The notes beneath the pieces are model-generated. The model searched no databases. It was not told where the DNA came from and worked only from the letters and a program-made list of their open reading frames with translations. From an uncultured Winogradskyella sp. (GTDB lineage Bacteria > Bacteroidota > Bacteroidia > Flavobacteriales > Flavobacteriaceae), in contig CAJXVG010000002.1 of assembly GCA_913061495.1 (NCBI GenBank), positions 1 to 64,000 of the forward strand: a stretch of DNA of 64,000 nt. Reading direction: 5' to 3'. Below, piece after piece: positions 13,486 through 46,031 of this stretch (positions within the stretch are counted from its first letter, which is position 1; each line of letters starts with the position of its first letter). The translations under genes and the position numbers were made by a program.

Positions 13486-13567
13486 GCGGATGTGGTGGAA
13501 CTGGTAGACACGTCAGACTTAGGATCTGATGCCGCGAGGTGTGCAGGTTCGATTCCTGTCATCCGCA
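13486..13567 (+). tRNA. tRNA-Leu (anticodon TAG)
   Basis: Acceptor GCGGATG/CATCCGC, anticodon loop CTTAGGA, long variable arm, GGTTCGATTCC T-arm. Confidence 0.95.
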
Positions 13568-13568
13568 C

Positions 13569-13950: not shown

Positions 13951-13960
13951 TTTGAGTATT

Positions 13961-27477: not shown

Positions 27478-27554
27478 TTATTGTCCAAGTTATATTTTGA
27501 TTTCAAGTCTTAAAACTCTAAAAATATACTCAAATTTCATTAGTTTTGTATTTG

Positions 27555-27995: not shown

Positions 27996-28066
27996 TCGTT
28001 TAGGAATACCTACCGCTACGGCAGGAATCCTCTTATACTTTAAGATTAAACCTAAAACTTCAAACA

Positions 28067-29251
28067 ATGAATAAATACATCGTATCCGCGATTTGCGGAT
28101 GCCTGTTCTTCGTTAATGGTTTCTCACAGGATAAAAACATTGGGGAACTGCTAAACGTAATAGAACAGAACAATACTGAGTTAAAAGGCTATCAATCTTT
28201 CATTGAAAGCCAACAGCTCGAAAACAAGAGCACCAATAATTTACCCGACCCACAGCTTTCAGGCTATTATTTGCCCTTTGGCGATAACGTATCGGGAAAT
28301 TACACCGAATATGAAATATCGCAATCCTTCGAATTTCCGACGGTTTACGGTTCACGCAGTAAATGGAACGACTTAAAGGCGATACAACTGCAAACGTCCT
28401 ATGCCAAAAAGCGGCAGGAAGTTTTATTGGAAGCAAAATCGGTATTGATTGAACTCGCTTTCCTTCGAAAGCAGAAAGCTATTGAATCCGAAAGGCGAAC
28501 CCAGAGCAAACAGGTTTTCGACCAGGTTCAAGAGCTGTATGATAAGGAACAAGTCGGGATTTTGGATTTGAACAAGGCGAAAATCGCTTGGATTCAAGAG
28601 CAATTCGTTGTTCAACAGATTGAAAGCGAAATCCAAATTGTACTGTCCAACCTCAGAACATTGAATGGCGGGAATGCCATTGATGGCTTTACAGCAGGTA
28701 TCGATTTGCCTATCGAGGTTGCCGAGGTCGAAACGCTTTGGCAAGAAAGATTAACCAGCGACCCTTCGTTACAAGGTTTAAAGGCAGCTGAAACGGCTTC
28801 GCTTCAAAAAGTAAAACTGGAAAAAAACAAGGTCTTGCCAAATTTGGCACTTGGTTACAATTATCAGGGTGTTAGCGGCAGTAATTTTTCGGGTTTTTAC
28901 GGTGGTCTTTCCATTCCGTTGTGGAACAGCAAGAACAAAGTTAAAGCGGCCGAAGCCGATTATGAGTATCAGCAATCGAATACGCAAGTCATTACCGCTT
29001 CGCTCTATGCCCAATTTCAAGAAACATACAATCGATACGAATTGATGCTCGAAAAATACAATAAGTATCAAACCACAATGGGCAACTTAAACAGCGAACA
29101 ACTGCTCTTTAAGGCCTATATGTTGGGCGAATATTCGTTTATGGATTACTATGTAGAGCTTCAGTTTTACCGCAATGCATCTGACAGAATGTTGCAGATG
29201 GAAAAAGAAATACAATTACTTCAGGCACAATTATTAAAACATACATTATAA
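28067..29251 (+). CDS. TolC family outer-membrane efflux protein
   Basis: Signal peptide, two OMF repeats, VLPNLALGYNYQGVSGSNFSGFYGGLSIPLW. Confidence 0.9.
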   Translation: MNKYIVSAICGCLFFVNGFSQDKNIGELLNVIEQNNTELKGYQSFIESQQLENKSTNNLPDPQLSGYYLPFGDNVSGNYTEYEISQSFEFPTVYGSRSKWNDLKAIQLQTSYAKKRQEVLLEAKSVLIELAFLRKQKAIESERRTQSKQVFDQVQELYDKEQVGILDLNKAKIAWIQEQFVVQQIESEIQIVLSNLRTLNGGNAIDGFTAGIDLPIEVAEVETLWQERLTSDPSLQGLKAAETASLQKVKLEKNKVLPNLALGYNYQGVSGSNFSGFYGGLSIPLWNSKNKVKAAEADYEYQQSNTQVITASLYAQFQETYNRYELMLEKYNKYQTTMGNLNSEQLLFKAYMLGEYSFMDYYVELQFYRNASDRMLQMEKEIQLLQAQLLKHTL

Positions 29252-29269
29252 ACCTTTAAAACAAAGATT

Positions 29270-29560
29270 ATGAAAATTTCAAAAATAATATTTGCAATAG
29301 CAATCGCATCAACATTTTTGGTAAGCTCTTGCAGGGAAACAAAAAAAGAGAGTACAGATGACCACGGTCACGAACACAATGAAGACGGAAGCCATATGCA
29401 CGAGGAAGACATAGAACAAGAAGAATTTGAAGTAGGAAAAGATTCTATGGAAACGAAGACAAATGACCACGGGCACGACCACGATGCAGACGGTAACCAT
29501 TCAGATGACGGTTCTGATACCCACAAACACGATGATGGTTCTGAACACCACGACCATTAA
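29270..29560 (+). CDS. His/Asp-rich putative lipoprotein (metal-binding)
   Basis: Lipobox LVSSC; repeated DHGHEHNEDGSH/DHGHDHDADGNH. Confidence 0.7.
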   Translation: MKISKIIFAIAIASTFLVSSCRETKKESTDDHGHEHNEDGSHMHEEDIEQEEFEVGKDSMETKTNDHGHDHDADGNHSDDGSDTHKHDDGSEHHDH

Positions 29561-29580
29561 AACTCAAATACATTCAAAAG

Positions 29581-31083
29581 ATGAAATATATAATAATTGT
29601 GCTTGCCTTTTTGGCAATGTCCTGTAATAACAAGGCAGAAGATGCACACGCACATAATGCAGATGGAAGTCACGTGGGCGAAGAAATTCCACGATTGAAC
29701 CATACTATCTGGACAGATAAAACAGAACTCTTTGTTGAGTTTCCTGCGCTTATAGTGGGCAACGGCAGCAAATTCGCAGCCCACTTTACGGTTTTGGATA
29801 AACACCAACCCGTTCGGGAAGGTTCTGTAACGGTAAGTTTGATAAAAGATGGTAAAGGAATCAGAAATAAGGCAGATGCACCGTCATCACCAGGTATTTT
29901 TTCGCCTGCTATACAACCAAAAGAAGCTGGGAACTATCAATTGGTTTTTGAATTGACGACACCAGAGTATTCAGATAAAATTTCCATTGATGATGTAATG
30001 GTATATGCCACTACGGATGAGGCCATAAAAGCTTTGGGTAAGGAAGAAGACGATGGAAGTATTTCGTTCTTAAAGGAGCAGGCTTGGAAAATCGATTTTC
30101 AGACCGCACCTGTTGTTTCTGGTAAAATCTACGATGTCATCAACACATCAGGTGTTTGGATGCCATCGCCAGGTTCAACAAAGTCCTTGGCGGCAAAATC
30201 CAATGGTGTGGTGGATTTTAAAATGGATAACCTTACAGAAGGTACAGCGGTAAAACAAGGCCAGCTGTTAATGAGCTTGAACAGTCAAGGTTTAGCTTCG
30301 AACAATTTGAGTACGGATATCGCTTCCGCGAAAGCGAAATTCCAACAAGCCAAATCGGAATATGAACGGAAGAAAGAGCTATACGAGTCTAAAATTGTCC
30401 CAAAATCTGAATTTGAGAAAGTGGAAAGCAGTTTTGAGATAGCCAGAGCTAACTATCAATCCTTGGTATCCGGTGTTTCGGGCGGAAGCAAACAAATCCG
30501 CGCCCCTTTTGATGGGTTTATCAAATCCATAACCGTTTCAAATGGCGATTATGTAGCACAAGGCGTTGCGCTGGTAAGCGTTGGAACACATCAATCCAAG
30601 GTTTTAAAAACCCAATTGGCACCCGACTACGGACTTACGATGGACAATGCACAGGGCATTTGGTATCAGGATAATGACGGCCAATGGAAGGACGTAACCG
30701 ATGCAGAGGGCAAAATCCTTTCTATTGGTAAAGACGTAGAACGTGAAAACCCATTGATTTCTGTTTTCGCACAAGTAAACGCAGAGGTCGAAATGCCAGA
30801 AGGTAGCTTAACGCCCGTACAGATTGCGATGGGAAATGCTACCCAAAACACAATGATTCCCGTGAATGCTCTTTTGGAGGACTATGGCAGCTATTCCGTT
30901 ATCGTTCAGCTTTCGGGCGAAAGTTTTGAAAGACGACCTGTAAAGATTGGAAAACGCAATGGCGAAAATGTAGAGATACTGGAAGGTCTGCAAGTGGGCG
31001 AAGTGGTCGTGACAACGGGAGCGTATCAAGTTAAAATGGCTTCAATGTCCGGTTCTACACCGGCACACGGTCACGAACATTAA
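29581..31083 (+). CDS. Efflux RND transporter periplasmic adaptor subunit with His-rich termini
   Basis: Lipobox LAMSC, IRAPFDGFIKSITVSNGDYVAQG, GLQVGEVVVTTGAYQV, C-terminal HGHEH. Confidence 0.92.
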   Translation: MKYIIIVLAFLAMSCNNKAEDAHAHNADGSHVGEEIPRLNHTIWTDKTELFVEFPALIVGNGSKFAAHFTVLDKHQPVREGSVTVSLIKDGKGIRNKADAPSSPGIFSPAIQPKEAGNYQLVFELTTPEYSDKISIDDVMVYATTDEAIKALGKEEDDGSISFLKEQAWKIDFQTAPVVSGKIYDVINTSGVWMPSPGSTKSLAAKSNGVVDFKMDNLTEGTAVKQGQLLMSLNSQGLASNNLSTDIASAKAKFQQAKSEYERKKELYESKIVPKSEFEKVESSFEIARANYQSLVSGVSGGSKQIRAPFDGFIKSITVSNGDYVAQGVALVSVGTHQSKVLKTQLAPDYGLTMDNAQGIWYQDNDGQWKDVTDAEGKILSIGKDVERENPLISVFAQVNAEVEMPEGSLTPVQIAMGNATQNTMIPVNALLEDYGSYSVIVQLSGESFERRPVKIGKRNGENVEILEGLQVGEVVVTTGAYQVKMASMSGSTPAHGHEH

Positions 31084-31095
31084 AAACGAAGAGAA

Positions 31096-34000
31096 ATGTT
31101 AAATAAAATATTATCAATTTCACTTCAAAACAGATTGCTCATTCTATTGGGAGCGGTTGCATTGAGCGTGTTGGGCATCTATTATGCCCGTACGATGAAC
31201 GTGGATGTATTCCCAGACCTAACGGCACCTACGGTAACCATTCTTACCGAAGCGCACGGAATGGAATCTGAAGAAGTCGAAAAATTAGTAACCTATCAAT
31301 TGGAAACTGCCTTGAACGGTTCGCCCAACGTGAGACGAATCCGTTCGTCATCGGCAGCAGGTATTTCCATTGTTTGGGTAGAATTTGAATGGGGAACCGA
31401 TATTTACCGTGCACGCCAAATTGTAAGCGAACGCATCCCAATGGTACGAGAGAACCTACCCGAAGGAATCGGTGCGCCTACAATGGCACCTATATCTTCC
31501 ATTATGGGCGAAATAATGCTCTTGGGCGTGACATCGGATAGTCTTTCGCCAATGGAATTGCGAACCTTGTCCGACTGGACCATCAGGCCTCGTATAAAAG
31601 CCATTGGCGGTATTGCAAATGTGGTGGTCATTGGTGGAGATTACAAGCAGTACCAAGTATTTGCCAATCCCGAAAAGATGAAGTATTACGACGTAAGCCT
31701 ATCAGAATTGGTAGAACACGTTAGGGAGGCTAACGAAAATGCCCCTGGCGGTATTATAAACCAATATGGCAATCAATACATCATTAAAGGAAGCGGTAGA
31801 GCCTATGTGCTGGAAGACTTGCAGGAAGCGGTTCTAAAGCAAGTAAACGGCCAGACCATAAAGATTAAGGATGTGGCCACGGTACAAGTAGGAGCTGCCG
31901 ATAAAATTGGCGATGGCTCGTTAAACGCAAATCCCGCTGTGATTCTGACCATTTCTAAACAGCCCGATGTAAACACCTTGGAGCTGACAGACCGCTTGGA
32001 TGAAGCGATTGCTGATTTAGAATCCTCATTGCCAAACGGGGTCAACATCAAAAGTCAAATCTTTAGACAATCCGATTTTATTGATGCTTCTATTAGTAAT
32101 CTAAATATGACCCTTTTAGAAGATGCATTTTTTGTAATGATTATCCTTTTCATCTTTCTGATGAACTGGAGAACTACCGTTATTTCCTTGCTGGCTATTC
32201 CTATTTCATTATTGGTTTCCATCATCATATTAAAATGGTTGGGTTACACCATAAATACAATGAGTTTGGGTGGTATGGCCATTGCTATAGGTGCGCTGGT
32301 AGATGATGCCATCATCGATGTGGAAAATGTGTATAAACGCTTGCGCGAAAATATCAGAAAACCGAAAACAGAGCGGGAATCGACCATAAAAGTAGTACGT
32401 GATGCTTCGGTAGAGATACGAAGTTCCATTATCATCGCTACCTTAATTATTATTGTATCATTTGTGCCCTTGTTCTTTTTAAGCGGAATGGAAGGTCGCT
32501 TGTTGCAACCGCTGGGAATAGCCTTTGTAACATCAGTATTGACCTCATTGGTAGTTGCCGTGACGGTCACGCCTATTCTGTGTTCCTATTTATTGAACAA
32601 TGAAAAGCTTTTGAACAAGCAGGCTGAAGGTACACGCGTGGAGCGATGGCTACAAAGACGGTATGGAGCTCTTTTGGAACGTGTAACCAGAATACCCAAA
32701 ACCATTATAGGCGTAACCGTGATTGCCTTTCTGTTAAGTCTGTTGGTTGTCACACAATTAGGGCGGAGTTTTCTTCCTGAATTCAACGAAGGCTCTTTGG
32801 TAATTAGTGTTGTCGGTCCCCCGGGAATGTCTTTGGAAGAAAGCAACAAGACAGGTAAATTAATCGAGACTATACTATTGGATATGCCCGAAGTAGAGGT
32901 CGTTACCCGAAGACAAGGCCGTGCCGAACTGGACGAACACGCGCAAGGTGTCAATGCTTCTGAAATTGATGTGCCTTTTGTCCTTGAGGACAAAACAAAA
33001 GAAGAGTTCTTTGAGGAAGTCCGAAACAAATTGAGCGTTGCACCAGGTGTCAATATTACCTTGGGACAACCCATCGCCCACCGTATTGACCATATGCTTT
33101 CCGGAACACGCGCCAATATTGCCATCAAGATATTTGGTTCAGATTTACAACAACTATTTGAAGTAGGCAAAAGCGTGGAACAGAACATCAAGGACATTGA
33201 TGGATTGGCAGATGTTGCGGTTGACCAACAAATTGAAGTACCGCAAATACGCATCAAACCCAAACGCCAGATTTTGTCGGCTTATGGAATGACGGTGGGT
33301 AATCTTATGGAACAAGTGGATATCGCTTTTGCGGGAGAAGAAGCGGGCGAGATTTATGAAGGACAGCAATATTTTGATTTGGTGGTCCGTTACGAAAAAC
33401 CGTTTCGCGACAATATTGAGAACATCAATAAGACCTTGATCAGTTTACCGAATAGAGGACAGACCACGTTAGGCGAATTGGCTACGGTACAATCCGTGAG
33501 TAGTCCAAATACCATCAATCGGGAAGATGTGCAACGAAAGATTGTGGTAGCCGCCAATGTACAGGGCAGGGATTTGCGTGGTGCGGTAAACGAAATAAAG
33601 GAAGTTGTGGCCAATAACGTGAATATGCCAGAAGGCTACCGTGTGCAATATGGTGGACAGTTTGAAAGTGAATCCAAAGCATCACAGCTTCTCTTGATAA
33701 CGGCCATCATCGCCATAGCTGTCATTTTCTTGTTATTGTATTATGAATTCAAGGACGTAAAACTGGCGTTCGTAGTGTTGATTAATTTACCTCTGGCATT
33801 AATTGGCGGCATCTTAATTGTCTATTTCACATCAGGCATCATCAGCATAGCTGCGACCATTGGATTTATTAGTCTTTTTGGGATAGCAACACGTAACGGT
33901 ATTTTATTGGTTTCTCGTTATGAAGATTTGCGAAAAGAAGGAATCCAAGGATTTCAATTGATAAAAAAAGGTGCATTGGATAGATTGAATCCCATATTAA

Positions 34001-34179
34001 TGACTGCCTTTACCACAGGTCTGGCTTTGATACCATTGGCCTTAAAAGGTGGCGAACCTGGTAGTGAGATACAAAGTCCTATGGCAGTTGTTATTTTAGG
34101 AGGATTGTTATCGGCTACTATTTTGAACTTGGTGGTAATTCCTTGTGTATATCAGTTGGTTCTGAAAAGGGAAAAATAG
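31096..34179 (+). CDS. CusA/CzcA family heavy-metal efflux RND transporter
   Basis: NVDVFPDLTAPTVTILTEAHGMESEEVE, GALVDDAIIDVENVYKRLR, 1027 aa. Confidence 0.95.
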   Translation: MLNKILSISLQNRLLILLGAVALSVLGIYYARTMNVDVFPDLTAPTVTILTEAHGMESEEVEKLVTYQLETALNGSPNVRRIRSSSAAGISIVWVEFEWGTDIYRARQIVSERIPMVRENLPEGIGAPTMAPISSIMGEIMLLGVTSDSLSPMELRTLSDWTIRPRIKAIGGIANVVVIGGDYKQYQVFANPEKMKYYDVSLSELVEHVREANENAPGGIINQYGNQYIIKGSGRAYVLEDLQEAVLKQVNGQTIKIKDVATVQVGAADKIGDGSLNANPAVILTISKQPDVNTLELTDRLDEAIADLESSLPNGVNIKSQIFRQSDFIDASISNLNMTLLEDAFFVMIILFIFLMNWRTTVISLLAIPISLLVSIIILKWLGYTINTMSLGGMAIAIGALVDDAIIDVENVYKRLRENIRKPKTERESTIKVVRDASVEIRSSIIIATLIIIVSFVPLFFLSGMEGRLLQPLGIAFVTSVLTSLVVAVTVTPILCSYLLNNEKLLNKQAEGTRVERWLQRRYGALLERVTRIPKTIIGVTVIAFLLSLLVVTQLGRSFLPEFNEGSLVISVVGPPGMSLEESNKTGKLIETILLDMPEVEVVTRRQGRAELDEHAQGVNASEIDVPFVLEDKTKEEFFEEVRNKLSVAPGVNITLGQPIAHRIDHMLSGTRANIAIKIFGSDLQQLFEVGKSVEQNIKDIDGLADVAVDQQIEVPQIRIKPKRQILSAYGMTVGNLMEQVDIAFAGEEAGEIYEGQQYFDLVVRYEKPFRDNIENINKTLISLPNRGQTTLGELATVQSVSSPNTINREDVQRKIVVAANVQGRDLRGAVNEIKEVVANNVNMPEGYRVQYGGQFESESKASQLLLITAIIAIAVIFLLLYYEFKDVKLAFVVLINLPLALIGGILIVYFTSGIISIAATIGFISLFGIATRNGILLVSRYEDLRKEGIQGFQLIKKGALDRLNPILMTAFTTGLALIPLALKGGEPGSEIQSPMAVVILGGLLSATILNLVVIPCVYQLVLKREK

Positions 34180-34195
34180 CAAACGAATTACAATT

Positions 34196-34230
34196 AAAAA
34201 CCTTCTTACTATGGTAGGAAGGTTTTTTTA
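34196..34230 (+). terminator. Intrinsic terminator of RND operon
   Basis: AAACCTTC...GGAAGGTTT stem followed by T7. Confidence 0.8.
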
Positions 34231-34242
34231 TGCATTAATTTT

Positions 34243-34415
34243 ATAATCCCACTCAGCACATTCCCCTACATTCCGTGAAAAGAGCTTCATTACAAAGGTC
34301 TTGGACACAATCCCCAATTTCAGTTTTCCATTCCGTTAACCCTTCCCGTCCCGAAACTTCGGGACTGGGAAGGAACACTACATTTCCGTACCAAAATCGT
34401 GAATTAATTTCGCTT
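34243..34415 (+). repeat. Islet-flanking repeat, copy A (contains bulged hairpin 34341-34373)
   Basis: Imperfect direct repeat with 40802-41003: ACTCAGCACATTCCCCT, ACAAAGGTCTTGGACACAAT, CAATTTCAG, AACCCTTCCC...GGGAAGGAACAC, AATCGTGAATTAA. Confidence 0.92.
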
Positions 34416-34487
34416 GAAACCCGTCTTATTTTTCACAAAGTCTATTTGTTTTTTAATTCAGTTATATTGTGTGAAAATTTAGCTTAA

Positions 34488-34898
34488 ATGGAAAAACTAA
34501 CGGAAAATAAAACCATTGAATTACTGATGCCTCATTTGGTTCAACAAGGCTATGAGATAGAGAGTTATTGCTTGGGCCAAACGAGAGGATATGATATTGT
34601 AGCTGTAAAGAATGGCCAAAAATTATTAATTGAGGTAAAAGGTGCAAAAGCACATAAGGATTTGCCTACGAAGCGACGAGATTATTTCAACTCTGGACAG
34701 ATTAAAACTCATTTGGGTAAAGCAATTATTAAATGCTTAGAAACCAAAGTTGCGTTCCCAAATGCAAAAATTGCCATTGCACATCCTGAGGATGAACAAA
34801 TAAGAAAAGCAATAGCCAGTATTATTCCAGAGCTCAATAAGATAGGTATACAACATTATTGGGTTAATGCTAATGGAACGGTAACCCTTGAAAAATAA
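34488..34898 (+). CDS. PD-(D/E)XK-like nuclease-fold protein (restriction-endonuclease-like)
   Basis: RGYDIVAVKNGQKLLIEVKGAKAHKD: D-x(n)-(I)EVKG arrangement. Confidence 0.6.
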   Translation: MEKLTENKTIELLMPHLVQQGYEIESYCLGQTRGYDIVAVKNGQKLLIEVKGAKAHKDLPTKRRDYFNSGQIKTHLGKAIIKCLETKVAFPNAKIAIAHPEDEQIRKAIASIIPELNKIGIQHYWVNANGTVTLEK

Positions 34899-34916
34899 TT
34901 GATTTTGAATACAACA

Positions 34917-35660
34917 ATGAATTCCAAATTATTTTCTTTATTTCATTTCTTGAATGAGAACAGATATCATAATAAAAGGGTCCAATCAAATTCTTATTAC
35001 CGGTTTTTAGCGCCGTTCGATTCACTCGAAGATAAATTGTATTCAGTTCTTCATCACGTAGCGAATACACAAAGCCAACCTAAAATTGATTTACTCGCAC
35101 CTTTTTTTCAGAAAGTATATTCGAATAAATCGCAGCTTCATAGTTTTAAGACATTCATCGATTTTCTAACAGATAAAAAAAATGGTGCCTATAATTATGA
35201 ATCCCTTTACAATGGTATGTTGAGACAAAAAGGTTGGGGCAACAAAACATCTGCCTTATTTACCAAAACCATTTATCACTTACATAATGTTAAGTATGAA
35301 TTTCAAAATTCAATATGGGACGATGCACCCAAACTCATAGACGTGAACGAGAAATTTTTCTCGCCAGTTGATGCTGTGATTGAAGCAATTTTCCATCGTA
35401 TTGACCCAACAACTAAATGGAATTTCCATAAAATAAATAAACTGCTACTGCATAATTATTCTTCTGAAGAAATGGAAGTTTGGGATGACCTTTGGTTTTG
35501 GGGGTTTATAAATCAACGCGGTTCTGGTCTAACAAGAGAATTTGTTTGGAACGAATCCAAATATTGGGCATTACTTGAGACTGAAAAGAATAATGCTGTG
35601 ATTGAAGAGATAAAATTGAAATCGTTGCAATTCCTTTCCATATTGAACCCAAAACAGTAA
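34917..35660 (+). CDS. Hypothetical protein, possible HhH-like segment; partner of upstream nuclease-like gene
   Basis: 18-nt spacing from upstream stop to ATG; RQKGWGNKTSALFTKTIYHLH resembles a helix-hairpin-helix motif. Confidence 0.5.
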   Translation: MNSKLFSLFHFLNENRYHNKRVQSNSYYRFLAPFDSLEDKLYSVLHHVANTQSQPKIDLLAPFFQKVYSNKSQLHSFKTFIDFLTDKKNGAYNYESLYNGMLRQKGWGNKTSALFTKTIYHLHNVKYEFQNSIWDDAPKLIDVNEKFFSPVDAVIEAIFHRIDPTTKWNFHKINKLLLHNYSSEEMEVWDDLWFWGFINQRGSGLTREFVWNESKYWALLETEKNNAVIEEIKLKSLQFLSILNPKQ

Positions 35661-35743
35661 CATATGTATTTGCTATTATCATATTCTAAGTTTGTCTGAA
35701 TTTAGATAGATTTAATTTCCAATTATTACCACTTAATCTATAT

Positions 35744-35777
35744 AGTGGCGAAAATTTGTTTTCAAATATTCGCCACT
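35744..35777. promoter_or_regulatory. Near-perfect inverted repeat upstream of AbiE-like operon (candidate operator)
   Basis: AGTGGCGAA-AATTTG-TTTT-CAAATA-TTCGCCACT; followed by TATTTTTG (-7-like) at 35784-35791 and ATG at 35813. Confidence 0.75.
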
Positions 35778-35812
35778 TTTTTGTATTTTTGGCAAAGTTT
35801 TGATTTTTAACT

Positions 35813-36580
35813 ATGCCAAAGATTATTGAAAATAAACTGATACAAGCTTTCAAAGACCGTAGTTCTTTTGATAGGGATGCGCTATATAACTTCTATCTGG
35901 ATTTCGAACCAGACCTAAAAGAAAGTACATTTAGTTGGCGAATTTATGACCTGAAGAAAAAGGACATAATTAAAACCATTGGTCGTGGACTTTATGTTAT
36001 TTCCTATAAACCTAAATATAAACCTCTTCTATCTGATAGTGTGTTCAAAATAGCCCGTAAAACCAATGAGCGTTTTGAAGATATAAAATATGCCATTTGG
36101 GAAACCCAATGGCTCAATGAGTTTTCTCAGCACCAGACGTCAAATCAAATGATTGTCGTCGAAGTAGAAAAAGAGTTTGTAGACTCACTCTATTACTACC
36201 TAAATGATAATCTAAGAATGGATTTTTTCCTAAATCCAGATGAAAAGGAAATTCAATTCTATATTTCAGAAAGTAACGTGCCAGTTATCATTAAACGTTT
36301 GGTGACAAGGGCACCCATACAAAAAATAAAAAATAAAAAAGCGGTAGTGCCCATTGCAACACTTGAAAAGATTATGGTGGACCTGTTTGCAGATGAAAAT
36401 CTGCTACATTTTTACCAAGGTTCTGAAATGGTAAACATCTACGAGAAAATAATTGATAGATATAGCATCAATTTTACAAAGTTGTTCAGCTATGCCAAGC
36501 GACGAAAAAAAGAACAGGAAATAAAGCAGTTTATAAGCAACAACATTCCAAATTTCTTAGAAGATATTAAATATGATTAA
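35813..36580 (+). CDS. AbiEi-like antitoxin/regulator (type IV TA; DUF6577-like)
   Basis: N-terminal winged-helix-like segment (STFSWRIYDLKKKDIIKTIGRGLYVIS), genetically coupled to AbiEii gene. Confidence 0.7.
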   Translation: MPKIIENKLIQAFKDRSSFDRDALYNFYLDFEPDLKESTFSWRIYDLKKKDIIKTIGRGLYVISYKPKYKPLLSDSVFKIARKTNERFEDIKYAIWETQWLNEFSQHQTSNQMIVVEVEKEFVDSLYYYLNDNLRMDFFLNPDEKEIQFYISESNVPVIIKRLVTRAPIQKIKNKKAVVPIATLEKIMVDLFADENLLHFYQGSEMVNIYEKIIDRYSINFTKLFSYAKRRKKEQEIKQFISNNIPNFLEDIKYD

Positions 36581-37676
36581 TAACAAAAGTTTTGAAAAGG
36601 AATGGCTGAATGGCTTCCGTGCAAAAAAGGAACATAAGGGTATCGATGTAACTATATTGGAAAAAATGGTTCACGCACTATCATTACTCGAACATTTAAA
36701 AGTTTTAGGACTTGATTTTGTTTTCAAAGGTGGAACATCACTTGTGCTTTTGCTAAAAGAAGGGAACCGATTTTCTATTGATATCGATATTATTTCCAGC
36801 GTTGAGCGTGATAAATTAGAAGAAATTTTGGATGCAGTTGTAGCCAATTCACATTTCAAAAAGCACGTGCTTAATGAGCATAGAAGTTATAAGGAAGGTG
36901 TTCCAAAGGCACATTACACCTTTGAGTTCGAGTCGGTATATAATCCAAACGTTCCTGGAACCATTCTATTGGATATCCTTTTTGACAGTCCGCACTATCC
37001 AGAACTTATAGAATCGCCCATTGAAACACCTTGGCTTTCCATTGATGGAACTGCTACAACAATTACTACGCCTTCGGTAAACGCTATTTGTGGCGATAAG
37101 CTAACAGCTTTTGCACCAGATACCATAGGCATACCATACTACAAAGGCGACCAGTTATTTGCAATGGAAATCTGCAAGCAATTGTTCGACTTGGGAAAAC
37201 TTTTTGAAAATATTTCTGATGTAGCAATGGTAAAGAAAAGTTTTTCAGCTTTCGCGAAAGCAGAACTATCCTATCGAAGTTCGGACAAGGATTTTAGTAA
37301 AAGGAAACTCAATGAAAAGGATGTGCTATGGGATTCCATAAATACCTGTGCTATTATGGCAAGACGAGAACGTAACCCAACCGCTGAAAAGAAAAAGAAA
37401 TTTGCAGATTTAAGCTCTGGCATACGAAGCTTTGGTAGCGCATTTTTAATGACAGGGAACTTTAGGATTGAAGAAGCATTGGCAGCTTCGGCCAAAGTAG
37501 CTTATTTGAATGCTATTATTCTACAAAAAGAGGATGTTGAAATAGAATATTATGAGAATCAGGATACAAAGGAATTGGTTATTAAAAATCCGGATTGGGC
37601 CTTTTTGAACAGATTAAAACGCCAACCCGATAAATCTATATTTTATTATTGGAACAAGGCGGTAGAACTATTGTAA
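36573..37676 (+). CDS. Nucleotidyl transferase AbiEii/AbiGii toxin family protein
   Basis: FVFKGGTSLVLLLKEGNRFSIDIDIIS nucleotidyltransferase motif; overlaps upstream stop by 8 nt. Confidence 0.9.
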   Translation: MINNKSFEKEWLNGFRAKKEHKGIDVTILEKMVHALSLLEHLKVLGLDFVFKGGTSLVLLLKEGNRFSIDIDIISSVERDKLEEILDAVVANSHFKKHVLNEHRSYKEGVPKAHYTFEFESVYNPNVPGTILLDILFDSPHYPELIESPIETPWLSIDGTATTITTPSVNAICGDKLTAFAPDTIGIPYYKGDQLFAMEICKQLFDLGKLFENISDVAMVKKSFSAFAKAELSYRSSDKDFSKRKLNEKDVLWDSINTCAIMARRERNPTAEKKKKFADLSSGIRSFGSAFLMTGNFRIEEALAASAKVAYLNAIILQKEDVEIEYYENQDTKELVIKNPDWAFLNRLKRQPDKSIFYYWNKAVELL

Positions 37677-37686
37677 ATTAATGTGA

Positions 37687-39105
37687 ATGGAATTAAAGTA
37701 TATTATAGAAATCTGTGTCGCTATCGACATCGCAATTTTGGGTATAGCATATCCTATTATCGTGGATAAAATATCCAATATAGGTCACAAGTTTTCATCA
37801 AACTATCTGGCTAATGCTTTTGAAAATGAATTTCCGCAGATAAAACTTTTTGGGATAATTCCCGGAAGGTCAAGAAGAATAACAGTATTTGAATGGGTTT
37901 TGTTCTTTACAATCGGCTCTTTTATATTCTTAATATTAGACCGTGAACCTTTTTTTTGGAAGGATAGTTGGATGATGCAAAACTCAGCAAAACTTCTAAC
38001 GCTATTCTTAACAATATCATTGGTTGTTATTTTTATTATTTGGTTAGATAAGGTTTCGCTGTACAATGGCAAGTCCACACGTTTGCTTACCTATATAATT
38101 TCCGAATACCGAAAGCTAAAAAAAGATCAAGATGATAAATACCATTTTAAGATTATCAATGAACTTGCAATATTTGCCATTAGGACACAGGATAAAGGTT
38201 TAGAAGAAACATTGGTTAATTTCTACACGGAAGAATTCAATAATTACCGTGCTAACTTCATTAGACCAAGAGAGGAAGAAAAACCAGATGGATTTGAAAA
38301 CTTTAAAGTTGAGTTTAATCACGAGTTCCACTATGGTATCAGGGAAATCATTAGAGAAGTTGCCAAAGGTAGAAATGAAGACTTGCAAAGTCTCGAATAT
38401 TTTGTTGTAAGTGGCGTATGGTTAATGGGACAAGGTATTTTTGAAACACCCATCTCAAATGACACCTATAAAGAACTTTGGCGCAATGTTGTGCTCATAT
38501 CAAACAATCCCAAATTTATAGGTAACTATTGGGGTACGGCACATCAATATTTTAATTTTGGATTGCAACGAGTCTATGGCACAGATTACAATTTTGAGAC
38601 TAAAAAATATGATAACCAGTCATTAATAGATAAAAGAGACAACGAAAGAAAACGTTTTTTTGAGTTTCACTTGGCCTTAGGAGGCTTATTGATATACCAG
38701 AAAAACTATGAAGCACTTAAAACGCTGTTTACATACACACAACACCAGCCACCTAAATATGTTCTGCTTCCTAATAATATGACCGAGATTTTTACGTGGT
38801 TCAGTAGCTTTAAAGACGAGTTTGGGAGAGGTTATTACCCTATTGATTTATCATACCCTTTCCCAGGATTGGATAATTTAGGGAACAGAAGGCGCGTTAC
38901 ATTCTACATCTGTCAGTATTTGACATTGCTTTTTTTAAGACAGTTTAAACTGCCAGAACACAATACCTACGATAACTTCACAAGACAACCTACTTTACCA
39001 CAAACCGAAGTGTTAGAACTATTACGATGGCAAGAATCCATAAATTATTTCAGGTTTTGTTTAAAAAAGGTGTTGAAAGATGAAAATCTCTTAAATACAA
39101 TATGA
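37687..39105 (+). CDS. Hypothetical membrane protein (N-terminal TMs, large cytosolic domain)
   Basis: About three N-terminal hydrophobic segments; first gene of three-gene run. Confidence 0.6.
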   Translation: MELKYIIEICVAIDIAILGIAYPIIVDKISNIGHKFSSNYLANAFENEFPQIKLFGIIPGRSRRITVFEWVLFFTIGSFIFLILDREPFFWKDSWMMQNSAKLLTLFLTISLVVIFIIWLDKVSLYNGKSTRLLTYIISEYRKLKKDQDDKYHFKIINELAIFAIRTQDKGLEETLVNFYTEEFNNYRANFIRPREEEKPDGFENFKVEFNHEFHYGIREIIREVAKGRNEDLQSLEYFVVSGVWLMGQGIFETPISNDTYKELWRNVVLISNNPKFIGNYWGTAHQYFNFGLQRVYGTDYNFETKKYDNQSLIDKRDNERKRFFEFHLALGGLLIYQKNYEALKTLFTYTQHQPPKYVLLPNNMTEIFTWFSSFKDEFGRGYYPIDLSYPFPGLDNLGNRRRVTFYICQYLTLLFLRQFKLPEHNTYDNFTRQPTLPQTEVLELLRWQESINYFRFCLKKVLKDENLLNTI

Positions 39106-39106
39106 T

Positions 39107-40018
39107 ATGAAAAAGAAGGAGATAAAGAAGCTAAAAAAGAAGTCATCAAAATTTATTGATGTTCTCGAGTCATCAATTGAAGAGGCTATTGAAGCTGCAA
39201 GATTAAATGCGGATATTGACTACGAAAAAGAATGGGAATTCTATGAAAAATCTAAAGATGCGATTGTTGGAGCATTAGAAAAGTTTGATAGTATTCAAAA
39301 TTCAGAGAAGGATTTTGAAGGAGAGCCTACTATATCTTTCGGTGTAAACGGTACAATGAATTTATTTCAAAAATCTGCATTTACAACTGGAGATATTCCA
39401 CATCTAAATGCAGACACGATATTATCCCAGCAGATAGTTTACCAGAACATCAATTATTATATTCCCAATGCGTTTTTATCGGCACGGAAAAAGAGGTATC
39501 TTCTTCGCAAAGAAGATTTGGTAAAAGGGATAGAAAAATTAGGATTTGATGTGGACAGAGATATTATGGTAGCAATGAATCTCAATATATATGGCATCGA
39601 TGATTTCCAGAACATTGAGGAACATATAACACGAGTTCCATCTACAGGACTCAAAAATGTACTATTCGTTTTACCGAAAGCCGATTTGCCTATCCTAAAA
39701 CATAAAGAACTTGAGGATAGTGAACAGCAAGAACATCAATTGGGCATATTAGATGATGATAGAAAAATCTATGGTTCTTTAATCGACCTAACACAAGATG
39801 CCAATGCGGGACATAGAGAAAAATGGAAAAATTCAAACGTTGATTTTGCGACCGATTTAAAAGTACAGCTAACTATAGCTTTTATTACTGAAGTTGTTTG
39901 GAAAGCCAATGCCAATGTAGTTCAAATTAATATTGAAACTTCATTAAAGGAACAAGGCATCGTAAATGAGCTGTCTGATATAGAGAAGTTGGTGCCAAAA
40001 AAGGAAACTAATGATTGA
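39107..40018 (+). CDS. Hypothetical protein
   Basis: Starts immediately after the preceding stop; overlaps next gene by 8 nt. Confidence 0.6.
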   Translation: MKKKEIKKLKKKSSKFIDVLESSIEEAIEAARLNADIDYEKEWEFYEKSKDAIVGALEKFDSIQNSEKDFEGEPTISFGVNGTMNLFQKSAFTTGDIPHLNADTILSQQIVYQNINYYIPNAFLSARKKRYLLRKEDLVKGIEKLGFDVDRDIMVAMNLNIYGIDDFQNIEEHITRVPSTGLKNVLFVLPKADLPILKHKELEDSEQQEHQLGILDDDRKIYGSLIDLTQDANAGHREKWKNSNVDFATDLKVQLTIAFITEVVWKANANVVQINIETSLKEQGIVNELSDIEKLVPKKETND

Positions 40019-40802
40019 GTTCAGAAACCCTCATCACATAGAACCACCAGGCGTTTTGAGACAAATTCTATCTCATCCTGCAAATGACACAGAAGTTATT
40101 GAACTTGCAGTTTTTCAAGAACATCGTTACGCATTTTTCTATTGGAACAAATGGATGCAAGACAACAAATCTAAGATTCCACCTTGTTTGGTTTCATTGG
40201 ATTGGCATCAGGATTTATGCCATCCGTGTGAAACAGAAAGAGAATGGCTTGATAAATTGGATTTGACAAGCGATGCTGAAGTCGCTTTGTTTTCTTGGGC
40301 CAAATTAGCTGGAAATAACGATGGGCATATTCTGTGTGCGGCATATCTTAACTTGATTGGCGATATTTATGTGCATTGTAGGCAAGAAATGGGACCAAAT
40401 ACTTGGCAAGATGAAGAATTGATAGACACCTATGGCAACAAACACACCATCAAAAAATTCAAAACTTATGAAGGTCTTCAAGATGCGCTTCTGAAGGCGT
40501 CAAAGTCGTCCGTATTTTTTGATATTGATTTGGATTTCTTTTCAGTAAATAACGGCCTGAGTGATGGCTCGTTCGAATTCACGTATCTTCAAGAAGAAGA
40601 AATAAGAACGATGTTGGATAAAGACCATCCGCTAATAAGTTGGATTTTTGAGCGGATAAAAGGGTTTACTATTGCAACAGAACCTGAACATTGTGGTGGG
40701 CTTTTAAAAAGCAACAAATTTCTTGACCTAATTAGTGACATTTATTTCAACCCAGAGTTATTTGCCCCAAAATGCAATTGGAAATGGAAACCAAAGTATT
40801 AA
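40011..40802 (+). CDS. UPF0489-like protein (arginase/deacetylase-like motifs)
   Basis: PCLVSLDWHQDLCHP and VFFDIDLDFFSV metal-ligand-like motifs. Confidence 0.65.
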   Translation: MIEFRNPHHIEPPGVLRQILSHPANDTEVIELAVFQEHRYAFFYWNKWMQDNKSKIPPCLVSLDWHQDLCHPCETEREWLDKLDLTSDAEVALFSWAKLAGNNDGHILCAAYLNLIGDIYVHCRQEMGPNTWQDEELIDTYGNKHTIKKFKTYEGLQDALLKASKSSVFFDIDLDFFSVNNGLSDGSFEFTYLQEEEIRTMLDKDHPLISWIFERIKGFTIATEPEHCGGLLKSNKFLDLISDIYFNPELFAPKCNWKWKPKY

Positions 40803-41003
40803 TAATCCACTCAGCACATTCCCCTGCATTTCACGCTCGCCTGCTGAAAAAGCAGGCAACCACTTCACTTCGGGAAAAGAGCTTCACTACAAAGGTCTTG
40901 GACACAATTCCCAATTTCAGCTTTCCATTCCGCTAACCCTTCCCGCTATGCTGGGAAGGAACACTTCATTCCAGAGCCGAAATCGTGAATTAAGTCCGCT
41001 TTT
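40802..41003 (+). repeat. Islet-flanking repeat, copy B (hairpins 40839-40857 and 40938-40959)
   Basis: See copy A; contains extra segment with GCCTGCT-GAAAA-AGCAGGC hairpin. Confidence 0.92.
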
Positions 41004-41037
41004 CTAATCGGAAAGCCATCGCTTTGATTTTCTTGAC

Positions 41038-41383
41038 AGGATTTTCGGCGCGGTCTTCTTGAGCCCTCACTCGAAAATCCTTAAAAACCAAACCGCTGTC
41101 TTACACATTTTAAGGGGTTTATAATGGATAAAGCCTTTGTTGTTTTTCGGGTCATCGAAAAACAGGCACGACATAACCAATTCTAACTTAACCACAGTTG
41201 CTTATCTCGCTTAACTGTCGGTACGCTCAAACGCAACTGCGTTTAAAAGAATTGCTAATGCCCTTATGGAACTTGTCAAGACTGTACGAGTTTTAGGGAA
41301 AAATAAGGCTTCTACTTCCTTGAAAATCCGAGGATTTTACTACGTCGCAAACACACCTGATTTTACCCTAAAAGTCTTGACAA
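41038..41383. other. Hairpin-rich noncoding region (candidate replication/transfer origin or structured RNA)
   Basis: AGGATTTTCG/CGAAAATCCT (41038-41081), GTTTTTCG/CGAAAAAC (41142-41163), AAACGC/GCGTTT (41229-41244), TTGTCAAGAC+TTTTAGGG / CCCTAAAA+GTCTTGACAA (41273-41383) enclosing AAAATCC/GGATTTT (41323-41338). Confidence 0.8.
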
Positions 41384-41511
41384 AACCCACTCTATCCATT
41401 GTGCGGTGCACGAAAGAAAAGAACAAACACCCCTTAAAATTTAATTCAGTTTAAAACAAATAGGGGAAATATAAACCAGTCTGTAACAAAGCAGACACAA
41501 ATCTTTTTATT

Positions 41512-41856
41512 ATGAGTACTATTAGAAATCACGTACAATTGATTGGAAACGTTGGACAAGAGCCAACCATTACGAACCTTGAAAGCGGTAAAAAAGTAGC
41601 CCGTTTTTCATTAGCCACAAATGAGTATTACAAAGACAGCAAAGGCGAAAAGCAAACGGACACCAACTGGCATACCGTAGTGGCTTGGGGCAAGACGGCT
41701 GAAATCGTTGAAAAATTTGTCGAAAAAGGCAAAGAAGTAGGAATTACAGGGAAGCTAAAGACCCGAACCTACACTACCGATGATGGCAACCAACGCTATG
41801 TAACGGAAGTTGTAGCCGATGAAATCCTATTACTTGGAAGCAAAAACGACAAGTAA
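41512..41856 (+). CDS. ssb: Single-stranded DNA-binding protein
   Basis: RNHVQLIGNVGQEPTITNLESGKKVARFSLATNE, TNWHTVVAWGKTAE. Confidence 0.95.
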   Translation: MSTIRNHVQLIGNVGQEPTITNLESGKKVARFSLATNEYYKDSKGEKQTDTNWHTVVAWGKTAEIVEKFVEKGKEVGITGKLKTRTYTTDDGNQRYVTEVVADEILLLGSKNDK

Positions 41857-41867
41857 TCTTCAAAATT

Positions 41868-41903
41868 AAAGAGGGCGTTCCTCTGGAAAGTTGCGCCCTC
41901 TTT
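41868..41903 (+). terminator. Intrinsic terminator of ssb with nested hairpin
   Basis: AAAGAGGGCG/CGCCCTCTTT stem, T-tract; loop holds TTCC/GGAA. Confidence 0.9.
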
Positions 41904-41934
41904 TTCATTATCCATTAATTAAAATTAGATAACA

Positions 41935-42384
41935 ATGAAAGCACAAGTTAACGAAATAAAAATAAGCTACAAAGGAGGGTTAAAATCCTCTGAGTGGCAA
42001 AAAATAAGTAGTTCACAAGATGCGGCTGAACTGCTCTTTGAGGATTGGGATAAAGATAGAATCGCCATACAGGAAACTTTCAAAGTTGTATTGTTGAATA
42101 ACAGTAACAAAGTGAAAGGTGTCTATCAATTGTCACAAGGCGGAATTACAAGCACATTAATCGACCTGCGGATTTTGTTTGCTGTCATATTGAAATCCCT
42201 ATCTGTAGCTATAATTCTAACGCATAATCACCCAAGCGGAAAATTGATGCCAAGTGAGGCAGATAAAAACCTTACAAGCAAAATAAAAAAGGCAGCACAA
42301 TTATTCGATATTACCATTCTGGACCATTTGATATTTGCACCTGATGGGAATTATTATAGCTTTTCTGATAATGGACTTTTATAA
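41935..42384 (+). CDS. JAB domain-containing protein (RadC-like)
   Basis: LTHNHPSGKLMPSEADKNLTSKI JAMM motif. Confidence 0.92.
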   Translation: MKAQVNEIKISYKGGLKSSEWQKISSSQDAAELLFEDWDKDRIAIQETFKVVLLNNSNKVKGVYQLSQGGITSTLIDLRILFAVILKSLSVAIILTHNHPSGKLMPSEADKNLTSKIKKAAQLFDITILDHLIFAPDGNYYSFSDNGLL

Positions 42385-42395
42385 ATTAGAAAGCT

Positions 42396-42593
42396 ATGAT
42401 TTATTTGAATTTTACCGATTTGAGCGAGGAAACACAAGAGCGATTACTTGCCAATTCTAAGGAAGATGTAAAGGAAAAATATGGCAAGGATATTATGGAT
42501 TATGCAACCAAGCATAATACCAATTTGGACAAGATGTTGGACGAAGAAGCGTTGCGAAATTTATATTCCTACACCTATATATTCAATATCTGA
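42396..42593 (+). CDS. Small hypothetical protein
   Basis: 65-aa ORF directly downstream of JAB gene and before a terminator. Confidence 0.55.
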   Translation: MIYLNFTDLSEETQERLLANSKEDVKEKYGKDIMDYATKHNTNLDKMLDEEALRNLYSYTYIFNI

Positions 42594-42713: not shown

Positions 42714-42905
42714 AGGGTTATCCAATTTTCGACTTTCGCCGATAACCCTGCACATCGAATAATAACATATCGGAAAATCATTTTCCCTGAAAATGGCAAT
42801 CGGCTTTTTAGCCAGATTGTATGGATTTTTGTCACGCTTGCGCGTGACGAAAAGGAATAGCAAGAGGGTAACGGGCTGCGCCGCGTTACATATTCCATTT
42901 TCGTT
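42714..42905. other. Candidate oriT region
   Basis: AGGGTTATC/GATAACCCT (42714-42749), GTCACGC-TTGC-GCGTGAC (42831-42848), GTAACG/CGTTAC (42868-42889) inside outer stem CGAAAAGGAATA/TATTCCATTTTCG; upstream of mobilization genes. Confidence 0.55.
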
Positions 42906-43035: not shown

Positions 43036-43416
43036 ATGGACTCATTCATCACAATTAGGTTCAAACGGAAAACTGCCAAAAGGTTTCAGGAATTTTCTAA
43101 GAAGCACTTCAAAACGCACACCGAAGCGATGGAAAATATCCTTGATTTTTTCCTTTACAATGAGATATCGCCAAAGGAAAAATTGGGGCCAACTGGACGT
43201 ACCATCGAAGCTAAGTTACTCAAAAGAATCAATGCGGTTATTGCCATAATGCGTGATGTGGAAAAGACCCAAACCAAACCTACGGTTGCAATGTTGCAAT
43301 CCCTTTTTGTAATGGACGAACCCAAAAAGAAACCACTCATTTTGGAAAAAAAATATGCTGAGGAAAAGAAAGAAGTACGCTTTCGCGAAAAGCGAAACAC
43401 CAACAATAAACTTTAA
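43036..43416 (+). CDS. BfmA/BtgA family mobilization accessory protein
   Basis: FITIRFKRKTAKRFQEFSKKHFKTHTEAMENILDFF, RHH-like; precedes relaxase. Confidence 0.75.
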   Translation: MDSFITIRFKRKTAKRFQEFSKKHFKTHTEAMENILDFFLYNEISPKEKLGPTGRTIEAKLLKRINAVIAIMRDVEKTQTKPTVAMLQSLFVMDEPKKKPLILEKKYAEEKKEVRFREKRNTNNKL

Positions 43417-43427
43417 AAAGTTAGCTT

Positions 43428-44447
43428 ATGTACATCACAATCACAGCTCAAAAAATGGGCGGTAACTTTTCCAAAAGTTCAGCAGATTTTGTGGGCTATT
43501 TAGAGAAGGAAAATCAAGGATTGGAACATCAGGATATGGAACATTTTTTCAATCAATATGGCGATGAGATTTCTGCGCAAGAAGTAGTCAAAGAGATAGA
43601 TGGTAATACCGCAAAATTAGAAAAACACGAACCAAGATTCTATTCAATTACCGTGAGCCCTTCAAAATATGAATTGCGAAAACTTCAGAACAGTAGCGAA
43701 GATTTAAAAAGATATACTCGCGAGCTGATGAAGGATTATGTGGCTTCATTTAATAGAGAAATTAAAGGGCGACCTGTCAGTATCGACGACATAAAATATT
43801 ATGCGAAAATTGAACATCAACGCACATTTAAGGGGACGGATTTTCAGGTAAAGGAAAACCAACCCTTTGCCACAAAAATACTTCAGTTAAAAACGGATAT
43901 CCGAAATATTCAAGAAGGGCGAGCTGAAGGAAATATCAAAAAGATGAAAAATGAAATTGCCAAACTGGAACGTCAAGCACCACATCAACAAAATGGAAAA
44001 CGGATTGTCCAGGGAATGGCGAAAGATGGAAACCAAAGTCATATCCATATCATCGTGAGCCGAAAGGATGCATCAAACAGATTTAGTTTGTCACCCGGAA
44101 GCAAATACAAAGCTTCCGATGTGAAGTTGAATGGGGAAACCGTAAAACGTGGTTTTGACCGAGACAAGTTTTTTGAGAAAGCTGAAAAGACGTTTGACTA
44201 TAAACGCAATTTTGCCGAGACCTACAAAGCACGAAAGGATTTTGTAAAAAATCCCAATCTATATTTCGCAGCCTTGATGAAATTACCAGCAAATGAAAAG
44301 GCATTGGCTTTCAAAATGATTACAAAAACGGGATTGCCGATAGTGCCAAGTATTCCAGTAAGTCAAACGCAAATTGCACTTCGGGTTTTGAAACGGTTAA
44401 GACGTGGTGCTGAAGTGGCCATCAAATCAAGTTCAATAGGAATTTAG
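43428..44447 (+). CDS. Mobilization relaxase (DUF5712/BtgB-like)
   Basis: GNQSHIHIIVSRKDASN histidine motif, N-terminal YITITAQKMGGNFSKSSADFVGYLEKE. Confidence 0.8.
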   Translation: MYITITAQKMGGNFSKSSADFVGYLEKENQGLEHQDMEHFFNQYGDEISAQEVVKEIDGNTAKLEKHEPRFYSITVSPSKYELRKLQNSSEDLKRYTRELMKDYVASFNREIKGRPVSIDDIKYYAKIEHQRTFKGTDFQVKENQPFATKILQLKTDIRNIQEGRAEGNIKKMKNEIAKLERQAPHQQNGKRIVQGMAKDGNQSHIHIIVSRKDASNRFSLSPGSKYKASDVKLNGETVKRGFDRDKFFEKAEKTFDYKRNFAETYKARKDFVKNPNLYFAALMKLPANEKALAFKMITKTGLPIVPSIPVSQTQIALRVLKRLRRGAEVAIKSSSIGI

Positions 44448-44450
44448 GGT

Positions 44451-46031
44451 ATGGAAATAGACAATCTCATAACAATACTTTCAATTATTGGTGTGGCCAG
44501 TATCGTTTTTTATGTGATGTTTCGAGTGAGCAAGTATGCGCTTTTCTTGAATTTTATAATGCTTTCGTGCTTGGTTTTCTATTTAATTGAAGTGAACGAA
44601 TTGGTATCGATATTGCTATATCTGGTATGCCCTCTAATGCTAATTAATATAGGATTGTATGTTTTTCTGCATAAAACTGAAAATGCACAAAATAGCGATA
44701 GAAAATATCAAGTCAATTTTGCTACTACCAAGGGAAATTTCAAATTGGATAATATCAAAAGAGGCGCATCCATAATCGGTTCTGCCGGAAGTGGAAAAAC
44801 CGAAAGTGTAGTGTATGGCTTTTTGAAACATTTCCGGAAAGAGCACTTTTGTGGAATAATCCACGACTACAAGGATTTTGAGCTTACCGAAATGGCATAT
44901 CCGCTTTTTAAGGATAGCGATATCCCGTTTAAGGTCATTTCCTTCGATAAAATAATCCATAGGGTAAATCCTATTGCGCCACGCTACTTAGAGAACGAGG
45001 AAAGCGTAAACGAAGTCTCACGTGTATTAATAGAAAACCTTTTGGAACAAAGAGAAAGCGGAACTACTGGAACTACAAAATTCTTTAACGACGCGGCGGA
45101 AGGTTTGATTGGTGGATTGATTTGGAAACTGAAAACCGACTATTCCAACTACTGTACGCTTCCACATTTGATAGCGATTTATCAAATGCTCGATACCGAT
45201 AGCCTTATCCAGTTTTTGGAAACCAACACCACATCGAGAGCAATGGCAGATGCTTTTATTAGTGGTAAGGATTCCGATAGACAGACAGCTGGCGTAAAAA
45301 GCACCTTGGCAAATGCGCTGAAACGAATCAGTACACAGCGGATTTTTATGACACTATCCGCAGACGAAGTCCCATTGAATATCAATAGCGAGGAAAATCC
45401 TGCAATTATTTCCGTGGTCAATAACCCAAAATATGAAACGTCTTATTCGCCCGTTATTGCAACCATAATACATACGATTACCAAGCAAATGAGCGTGAGC
45501 GGTCAAAGACCGTCTTTTCTTTTGATGGAAGAAGCGCCGACTATTCGCTTATTGAATATGCACCGAATTCCGGCAACGCTCAGAAGTTATGACATCGCTA
45601 CTATTTATGTGATGCAGGACAAAATCCAAAATGATATGATGTATGGCGATAAGGCAAGTAAGGCTATTTTAAGCAATCTATCCTATCAGTTTTTTGGCAA
45701 GGTCAACGACCCAGATACTGCCAAATATTACGAGCGCTTTTTTGAAATCATCAAAGACCCAACGAAAAGCATCAGTCGTGGACATAACTTGGATTTTGAT
45801 ACACGAATCACAACAGGCGAAAAGGAAATCCCTAAAATTAGAGCAGATGTGTTCTTTAGATTGAAACAGGGCGAGTTTATTACCTATGCTGATGGAAAGG
45901 ATAAGAAAGTGCAGTTTAAGTTATCAAGAATCCAAAGGCAGCTTCCTGAAGAATCGAAGCAGTTTTCTCAGGCTGATTTAGCAACTAATTTTACGAAGAT
46001 ATATAGAGATGTAAAAACGATATTTAGTTAA
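44451..46031 (+). CDS. VirD4/TraG-like type IV coupling ATPase (BfmC-like)
   Basis: Walker A GSAGSGKTES, Walker B-like FLLMEEAPT, N-terminal TMs. Confidence 0.88.
   Translation: MEIDNLITILSIIGVASIVFYVMFRVSKYALFLNFIMLSCLVFYLIEVNELVSILLYLVCPLMLINIGLYVFLHKTENAQNSDRKYQVNFATTKGNFKLDNIKRGASIIGSAGSGKTESVVYGFLKHFRKEHFCGIIHDYKDFELTEMAYPLFKDSDIPFKVISFDKIIHRVNPIAPRYLENEESVNEVSRVLIENLLEQRESGTTGTTKFFNDAAEGLIGGLIWKLKTDYSNYCTLPHLIAIYQMLDTDSLIQFLETNTTSRAMADAFISGKDSDRQTAGVKSTLANALKRISTQRIFMTLSADEVPLNINSEENPAIISVVNNPKYETSYSPVIATIIHTITKQMSVSGQRPSFLLMEEAPTIRLLNMHRIPATLRSYDIATIYVMQDKIQNDMMYGDKASKAILSNLSYQFFGKVNDPDTAKYYERFFEIIKDPTKSISRGHNLDFDTRITTGEKEIPKIRADVFFRLKQGEFITYADGKDKKVQFKLSRIQRQLPEESKQFSQADLATNFTKIYRDVKTIFS

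Follow-up and report, generated by a model that had tools for sequence, protein, structure and literature searches.

Two direct repeats share a long imperfect palindrome

What is the role of the two direct repeats that lie on either side of a seven-gene block in the window, i.e., the whole 64,000-nt stretch of DNA from an uncultured Winogradskyella sp. that was analyzed here? The repeats, each about 173 nt long, occupy positions 34249 to 34415 (copy A) and 40807 to 41001 (copy B, the resident copy 5' of ssb) on the plus strand, with boundaries set by profile; copies gathered by profile search gave a consensus of 173 nt. A and B align in three blocks: 34249 to 34272 with 40807 to 40830 (24 nt, 96%), 34263 to 34348 with 40860 to 40945 (86 nt, 90% identity), and 34365 to 34415 with 40951 to 41001 (51 nt, 84%). 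With identities of 84 to 96%, they bear out the first-pass annotation, which described imperfect direct repeats around nuclease-like, AbiE, and three-gene modules. Its description of a stem CCTTCCC/GGGAAGG with an unpaired T and two different, paired tips also agreed with the sequence and the folds. However, it overlooked that this short hairpin is merely the tip of an imperfect palindrome of about 107 nt.

This palindrome, TCTTGGAC...GTCCGCTT, forms the right half of the repeat. A lower stem is followed by a roughly symmetric internal loop with conserved sequence and then by the short hairpin. In copy A, the left half spans 34249 to 34297 and the palindrome 34298 to 34417; its lower stem is partly decayed, and the 3' base reads ATTTCGCTT where GTCCGCTT is expected. 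The palindrome of copy B (40895 to 41003) folds best on the minus strand, and the left half of this copy carries an additional small hairpin (GCCTGCTGAAAAAGCAGGC). Several CATTCC motifs are present in the left half of the repeat (2.93 per whole copy versus 0.08 in shuffles). GGAATG was considered as a Chi-like motif and rejected, as it showed no excess window-wide (43 versus 35.3 ± 6.0). An Rfam scan at gathering score matched tRNA alone and not the repeat, and a search of a plasmid collection gave no match. The genome to which the window belongs contains two copies only, A and B, and no scattered insertions.

The repeats separate modules that are gained and lost

The block between A and B, encoded on the plus strand, starts with a nuclease-like pair, a 136-aa ORF (34488 to 34898) with a weak NOV_C match (Pfam PF13020, E 5e-5) and its 253-aa partner (34899 to 35660), which has no family. 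They are followed by AbiEi (35813 to 36580; PADLOC E 2.7e-94), the AbiEii toxin, a nucleotidyltransferase (36573 to 37676; Pfam PF08843 E 2e-21, PADLOC E 3.5e-129), and three genes of unknown function, for proteins of 472 aa (37687 to 39105), 303 aa (39107 to 40018), and 263 aa (40011 to 40802). The 263-aa protein, which shares an operon with the two family-less proteins, is weakly similar to UPF0489/peptide arginase, below both cut-offs; the peptide arginase model is that of FlmR/OhkR. To the left, an RND efflux module (27545 to 34179, plus strand) ends in copy A and is a block shared with loci L031, L110, and L080. Farther left, a 1,481-aa ORF (17920 to 22362) matches, within a single frame, the domains of an RND pump (ACR_tran) and of outer-membrane efflux (OEP), and a tRNA-Leu (13486 to 13568), followed by a 598-aa ParB-like gene (13952 to 15748), could mark an element end.

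The first-pass annotation had proposed that the repeats are module boundaries and that the islet is gained and lost, and it called for an islet-free locus with a single repeat copy. Indeed, L110 is such an empty site with exactly one copy: it matches the window at 27545 to 34415 and 40807 to 41961 with one shared repeat, leaving one repeat between the RND module and the backbone described below. L081 has the RND module, two tandem repeats, and the backbone, and many loci have tandem copies separated by about 37 nt. Furthermore, a GTDB scan with the 472-aa protein yielded 14 loci in named records, all 14 with at least one repeat copy nearby; the relatives include Winogradskyella, Marinirhabdus, Luteirhabdus, Altibacter, Leeuwenhoekiella, Nonlabens, and others. 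The seven-gene block recurs with different neighbors in other arrays, at 97% (G038) and 93% (G033). The 136-aa/253-aa pair is also a module in L090 and is rearranged in L136 to L139, where, compared with window positions 34476 to 40803, the nuclease-like pair and the AbiE/three-gene part abut in swapped order with no repeat between them.

Inside the arrays, 120 genes run along the repeat and 20 against it (12 of these 20 belong to L092 and L106, both lacking the ssb/mob anchor); upstream of the arrays, 297 run along and 160 against. Pfam sampling and PADLOC detected metal efflux, MFS, AraC-type regulator, sigma factor, methyltransferase, and ParB/DUF932 genes in the modules. In revision of the former label "cargo/defence", the modules hold metal efflux, MFS, regulator, and leading-region genes as well as defense genes.

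The repeat typically precedes ssb in the ssb-mob backbone of MobB-type ICEs

Right of copy B lies a conserved backbone on the plus strand, composed of ssb (41512 to 41856; Pfam PF00436, E 2.8e-34), a radC-like gene (41935 to 42384; Pfam PF04002, E 6.4e-35), a 65-aa ORF belonging to the shared backbone (p65, 42396 to 42593), an oriT-like element, a 126-aa ORF without Pfam match, named by its mobA position (43036 to 43416), a MobB family relaxase gene (43428 to 44447; NF041495, 395 bits at a cut-off of 200), and a gene for a MobC/VirD4-like coupling protein (44451 to 46031; NF041326, E 2.8e-47, under its cut-off). We compared 76 loci, consisting of the window and sets of 15, 40, and 20 stretches that were picked from listed matches with preference for multi-copy places. 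The ssb-mob backbone was present in 67 of them, and all 128 copies there were oriented like ssb/mob. The nearest copy ended at a median of 493 bp before ssb and was located less than 1 kb upstream in 65 of the 67 anchored loci. Thirty anchored loci had one copy, 36 had two or more, and one had none of full length. These numbers led us to revise the view that the repeat chiefly brackets cargo: it typically precedes ssb, and often does so as a single copy.

L041 has no intact copy at ssb, and in L164 the copy sits between radC and mobA. The nine loci without anchor were L045, L092, L106, L115, L142, L145, L147, L155, and L158; among them, the oriT-like element is partly retained in L045, L147, and L155. 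In the genome of the window, a second MobB relaxase gene was detected (G000, contig C223, 2128 to 2934), and therefore this genome probably harbors a second ICE.

The search with a covariance model across Bacteroidota, which had been suggested earlier, was run, with samples of more than 40 genomes scored under stricter filters. In another search, 13 of 99 genomes, including that of the window, matched the repeat, all of the same genus. The covariance model matched 91 of 397 Flavobacteriaceae genomes and 76 of 237 genera. In an order sample, 10 of 296 genomes matched, all within the family; in a phylum sample, 8 of 296 did, with a single genome outside the family (G869) showing the same ssb-mob context. 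The repeat is common, and its presence in named cultured marine strains, together with the model that defines it, makes the question of its role testable there.

Linkage to MobB was also evident from the genomes: MobB was detected in 52 of 199, and 39 of these 52 were in the match list of the covariance model (overall, 91 of 397). From 10 of the other 13 MobB genomes, 12 loci were fetched, of which two contained clear diverged copies and two partial ones; in the other eight, the covariance model with filters off gave weak matches only. L168, a MobB ICE without the repeat, has an unrelated, near-perfect, and very strong hairpin of about 150 nt just 5' of ssb (7034 to 7184), a possible functional replacement of the repeat.

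The palindrome is constrained to fold, with a bias toward the minus strand

Copy B (202 nt) folds beyond chance, with single-stranded DNA (ssDNA) z scores of −3.4/−3.5 on either strand and an RNA z score of −3.9. Copy A folds more weakly (minus-strand ssDNA z score of −1.5, with 15 of 200 shuffles equally good; plus-strand RNA z score of −2.8). Across 24 aligned cores, 93.9% of the cells pair, and 12 of 28 pairs are altered on both sides. Cells changed on both sides numbered 42, versus 11.6 ± 2.8 in shuffles that ignore relatedness, and none of 500 shuffles reached the observed number; when the partners were slid by 1 to 3 columns as a control, 5 to 12 such cells were counted. The unpaired blocks of the repeat are conserved as well. 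We conclude that the structure of the repeat is under constraint, as the first-pass annotation had supposed for the hairpin.

It is rather improbable that the repeat is merely a recombination substrate or a MITE-like ICE parasite whose fold is a by-product. Internal deletions are tolerated and some copies are not near mob genes, as would fit such a reading, but it is at odds with the compensatory changes, the conserved unpaired blocks, the position of a copy before ssb at 65 of the 67 anchored loci, and a genome without scattered insertions.

Which strand folds? In a first run, RNAalifold found almost no structure on the plus strand (−1.3 kcal/mol), and structure was obtained on the minus strand with ribosum scoring; alifold energies were −51.4 for the minus and −33.1 for the plus strand. 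With DNA parameters, the minimum free energy was lower for the minus than for the plus strand in 117 of the 123 distinct cores, and with RNA parameters in all 123. Composition-controlled z scores of the same cores, minus versus plus, were −2.44 versus −1.85 and −3.71 versus −2.60. In line with this, the minus-fold structure contained 111 G-T versus 8 A-C cells. Each strand's own best structure favors G-T on that strand, as seen in 123 rows with G-T to A-C ratios of 526 to 61 for the minus strand (32 pairs) and 286 to 118 for the plus strand (25 pairs), and the strand bias is therefore partly self-selecting. A second long hairpin on the minus strand lies directly after copy B in the ssb leader (41002 to 41112; −28.1 for minus versus −15.5 for plus in the window). 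At its offset, the minus strand was lower in 46 of 49 loci, though the sequence varies among lineages.

Since the strand bias favors the minus strand, plus-strand RNA is unlikely to be what folds; from the earlier proposal of a folded-DNA or RNA constraint, the constraint stands and this form of RNA probably does not. An antisense or small RNA from the minus strand is very unlikely to do the folding, too. The bias is even stronger with RNA parameters, as such an RNA would predict, but a minus-strand promoter signal within the repeat was found in only 3 of 124 copies versus 12.6 in shuffles (scored against a Bacteroidota promoter consensus), the Rfam scan gave no match for the repeat, and transferred DNA explains the fixed orientation to ssb/mob better.

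Repeat copies are chimeric

Copies with a common left neighbor but different right neighbors resembled each other more in the left half, and the similarity of their hairpins was close to baseline; copies with a common right neighbor were alike in the hairpin half. At the family level, the 124 distinct copies gave sets of 16 and 186 comparisons. In the 16 comparisons, the switch points fell at columns 17 to 111 of 173 (12 of them at 17 to 79), several being weakly supported, and 9 were located left of the hairpin. Among the 186 same-right comparisons, a changepoint was clear in just 35, where it fell at columns 10 to 67. A sharp single crossover at TCTTGGAC, suggested by 23 pairs, was not upheld at the family level in either set. 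When repeat similarity was regressed on the similarity of the flanks for all pairs, the result was not informative. Because the switch points vary, we read the module exchange as homologous recombination and not as the use of one crossover site; cassette exchange at one structured site, as envisaged earlier, found no support.

In L031, L084, L130, and L033, inner copies are found whose hairpin has disappeared through an internal deletion, with the modules retained. Given these copies and L041 with no intact copy at ssb, extra copies are dispensable.

We consider an integron-like system unlikely, in which modules would move as single-strand cassettes and a tyrosine recombinase or the relaxase would cut the folded minus strand as a recombination site. 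The same-orientation arrays, the minus-strand folding, the tandem empty copies, and the exact presence or absence of modules fit this model, as did the initial indication of one switch point and a truncated copy in L033 (3099 to 3191) that stops at GTCTT. However, the switch points proved scattered, truncated copies or half-sites are few, and the integron integrase model TIGR02249 was over its cut-off in none of 20 genomes. Moreover, the hairpin heads the module, while in integrons it is found at the tail.

A separate oriT-like element points to a role in the leading region

The oriT-like element (42816 to 42889) is 74 nt long and lies between p65 and mobA; in an alignment of 48 loci, it has a near-invariant core, AAAAGGAATAGCAAGAGGGTAAC, surrounded by two inverted repeats that covary. 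It is also present in MobB loci where the repeat was not found, and it seems to be where transfer of this MobB ICE family originates. That the repeat itself is the oriT and that the relaxase recombines its copies is hardly credible: its hairpin adjoins a conserved box, it is linked to MobB, and its orientation is fixed, but the place beside the relaxosome genes, directly 5' of mobA, is filled by this other element. We rejected the repeat as an oriT candidate for this reason.

In PMC11541004, relaxases are described as usually lying in the lagging region and the ssb genes of the leading region as encoded on the T-strand side. By this rule, ssb, the repeats, and the modules would enter the recipient first, with the minus strand as the transferred strand. 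With a separate oriT-like element at 42816 to 42889, the repeat should lie in the leading region and its folding strand should be the transferred one.

We slightly favor the reading that the repeat is a leading-region element of MobB-type ICEs that acts as folded ssDNA, its extra copies serving module exchange. It would probably help newly transferred ssDNA to get started in the recipient and double as a swapping point. After nicking at oriT by the relaxase, the minus strand would enter the recipient via p65, radC, and ssb, followed by the repeat, which would fold into its long hairpin and offer a start for RNA polymerase or primase. Then, ssb and the following genes could be transcribed or made double-stranded early, as with Frpo/ssi and sso, and further modules would be headed by the extra copies. 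Since all copies are homologous and co-oriented, recombination between them, presumably of the RecA type and mostly left of the hairpin, could insert, remove, or swap modules, and the hairpin would remain with the genes behind it.

Against this reading, no promoter is conserved: an exact TAnnTTTG on the plus strand was present in just 1 of 124 copies, and a looser TTG plus a near −7 site on that strand in 25 of 124 versus 4.0 in shuffles (both scored against a Bacteroidota promoter consensus). The decayed base of copy A, the inner copies without hairpin, L041, the partly self-selecting strand bias, the nine loci without anchor, and the position of the copy in L164 also speak against it.

Comparison with known systems

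In integrons, the bottom strand of attC folds, and the hairpin is located at the tail of the cassette. The arrays described here resemble integron cassettes in that same-orientation modules are split by structured repeats. They differ from them by the position of the hairpin at the module head, multi-gene modules, scattered switch points, and no IntI over the cut-off, and they are not assigned to integrons.

Frpo/ssi of F-like and IncI plasmids are ssDNA promoters that precede ssb in the leading region, and one element often has several of them (PMC11541004). The repeat is likewise a strand-specific element with a conserved ssDNA fold 5' of ssb, in a region that the position of the relaxase suggests to be the leading one. 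In contrast to Frpo/ssi, it has no conserved promoter boxes in the stem (compared with a Bacteroidota promoter consensus), belongs to Bacteroidota ICEs, and also occurs at module joints, and its initiation activity is a proposed one. The sso regions of rolling-circle plasmids contain RSB, a recombination site between plasmids (PMC5703833, in part), and sso1 functions in ICEBs1 (PMC4595007, in part). These elements are folded, of similar size, and have one working strand; a fixed palindrome orientation relative to transfer functions was also found here, in 128 of 128 copies at 67 anchored loci. They differ in that their hosts are Firmicutes and that the corresponding function of the repeat is a proposed one. 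Because no conserved promoter boxes were found, we suggest that the repeat works like Frpo/ssi or sso and do not claim membership in either. In the DSO-qacC-SSO model of staphylococcal plasmids, a gene and single-strand replication elements move together through homologous recombination (PMC5037232, in part). Cargo that moves together with single-strand elements by this route is what the arrays have in common with it, but there one gene lies between two unlike origins, and here arrays of one repeat are carried on an ICE.

In the open-licence PMC literature, we found no paper that deals with leading regions or single-strand origins of Bacteroidota ICEs, and none on Winogradskyella and ICEs that describes the repeat; the consulted parts of PMC11104534 mention neither repeats nor leading regions. 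First expression and second-strand synthesis of transferred ssDNA have been described for a few elements of enterobacteria and Firmicutes. The repeat would offer ICEs a way of loading and unloading cargo, including defense and metal resistance, without a dedicated recombinase. Tentatively, and with somewhat less than even confidence, we propose that it represents an undescribed single-strand initiation family of Bacteroidota ICEs, with no sequence relationship to Frpo or sso, which may turn the leading region into an open-ended array where each cargo module has its own transferred-strand hairpin as a head and recombination at the repeats proceeds integrase-free.
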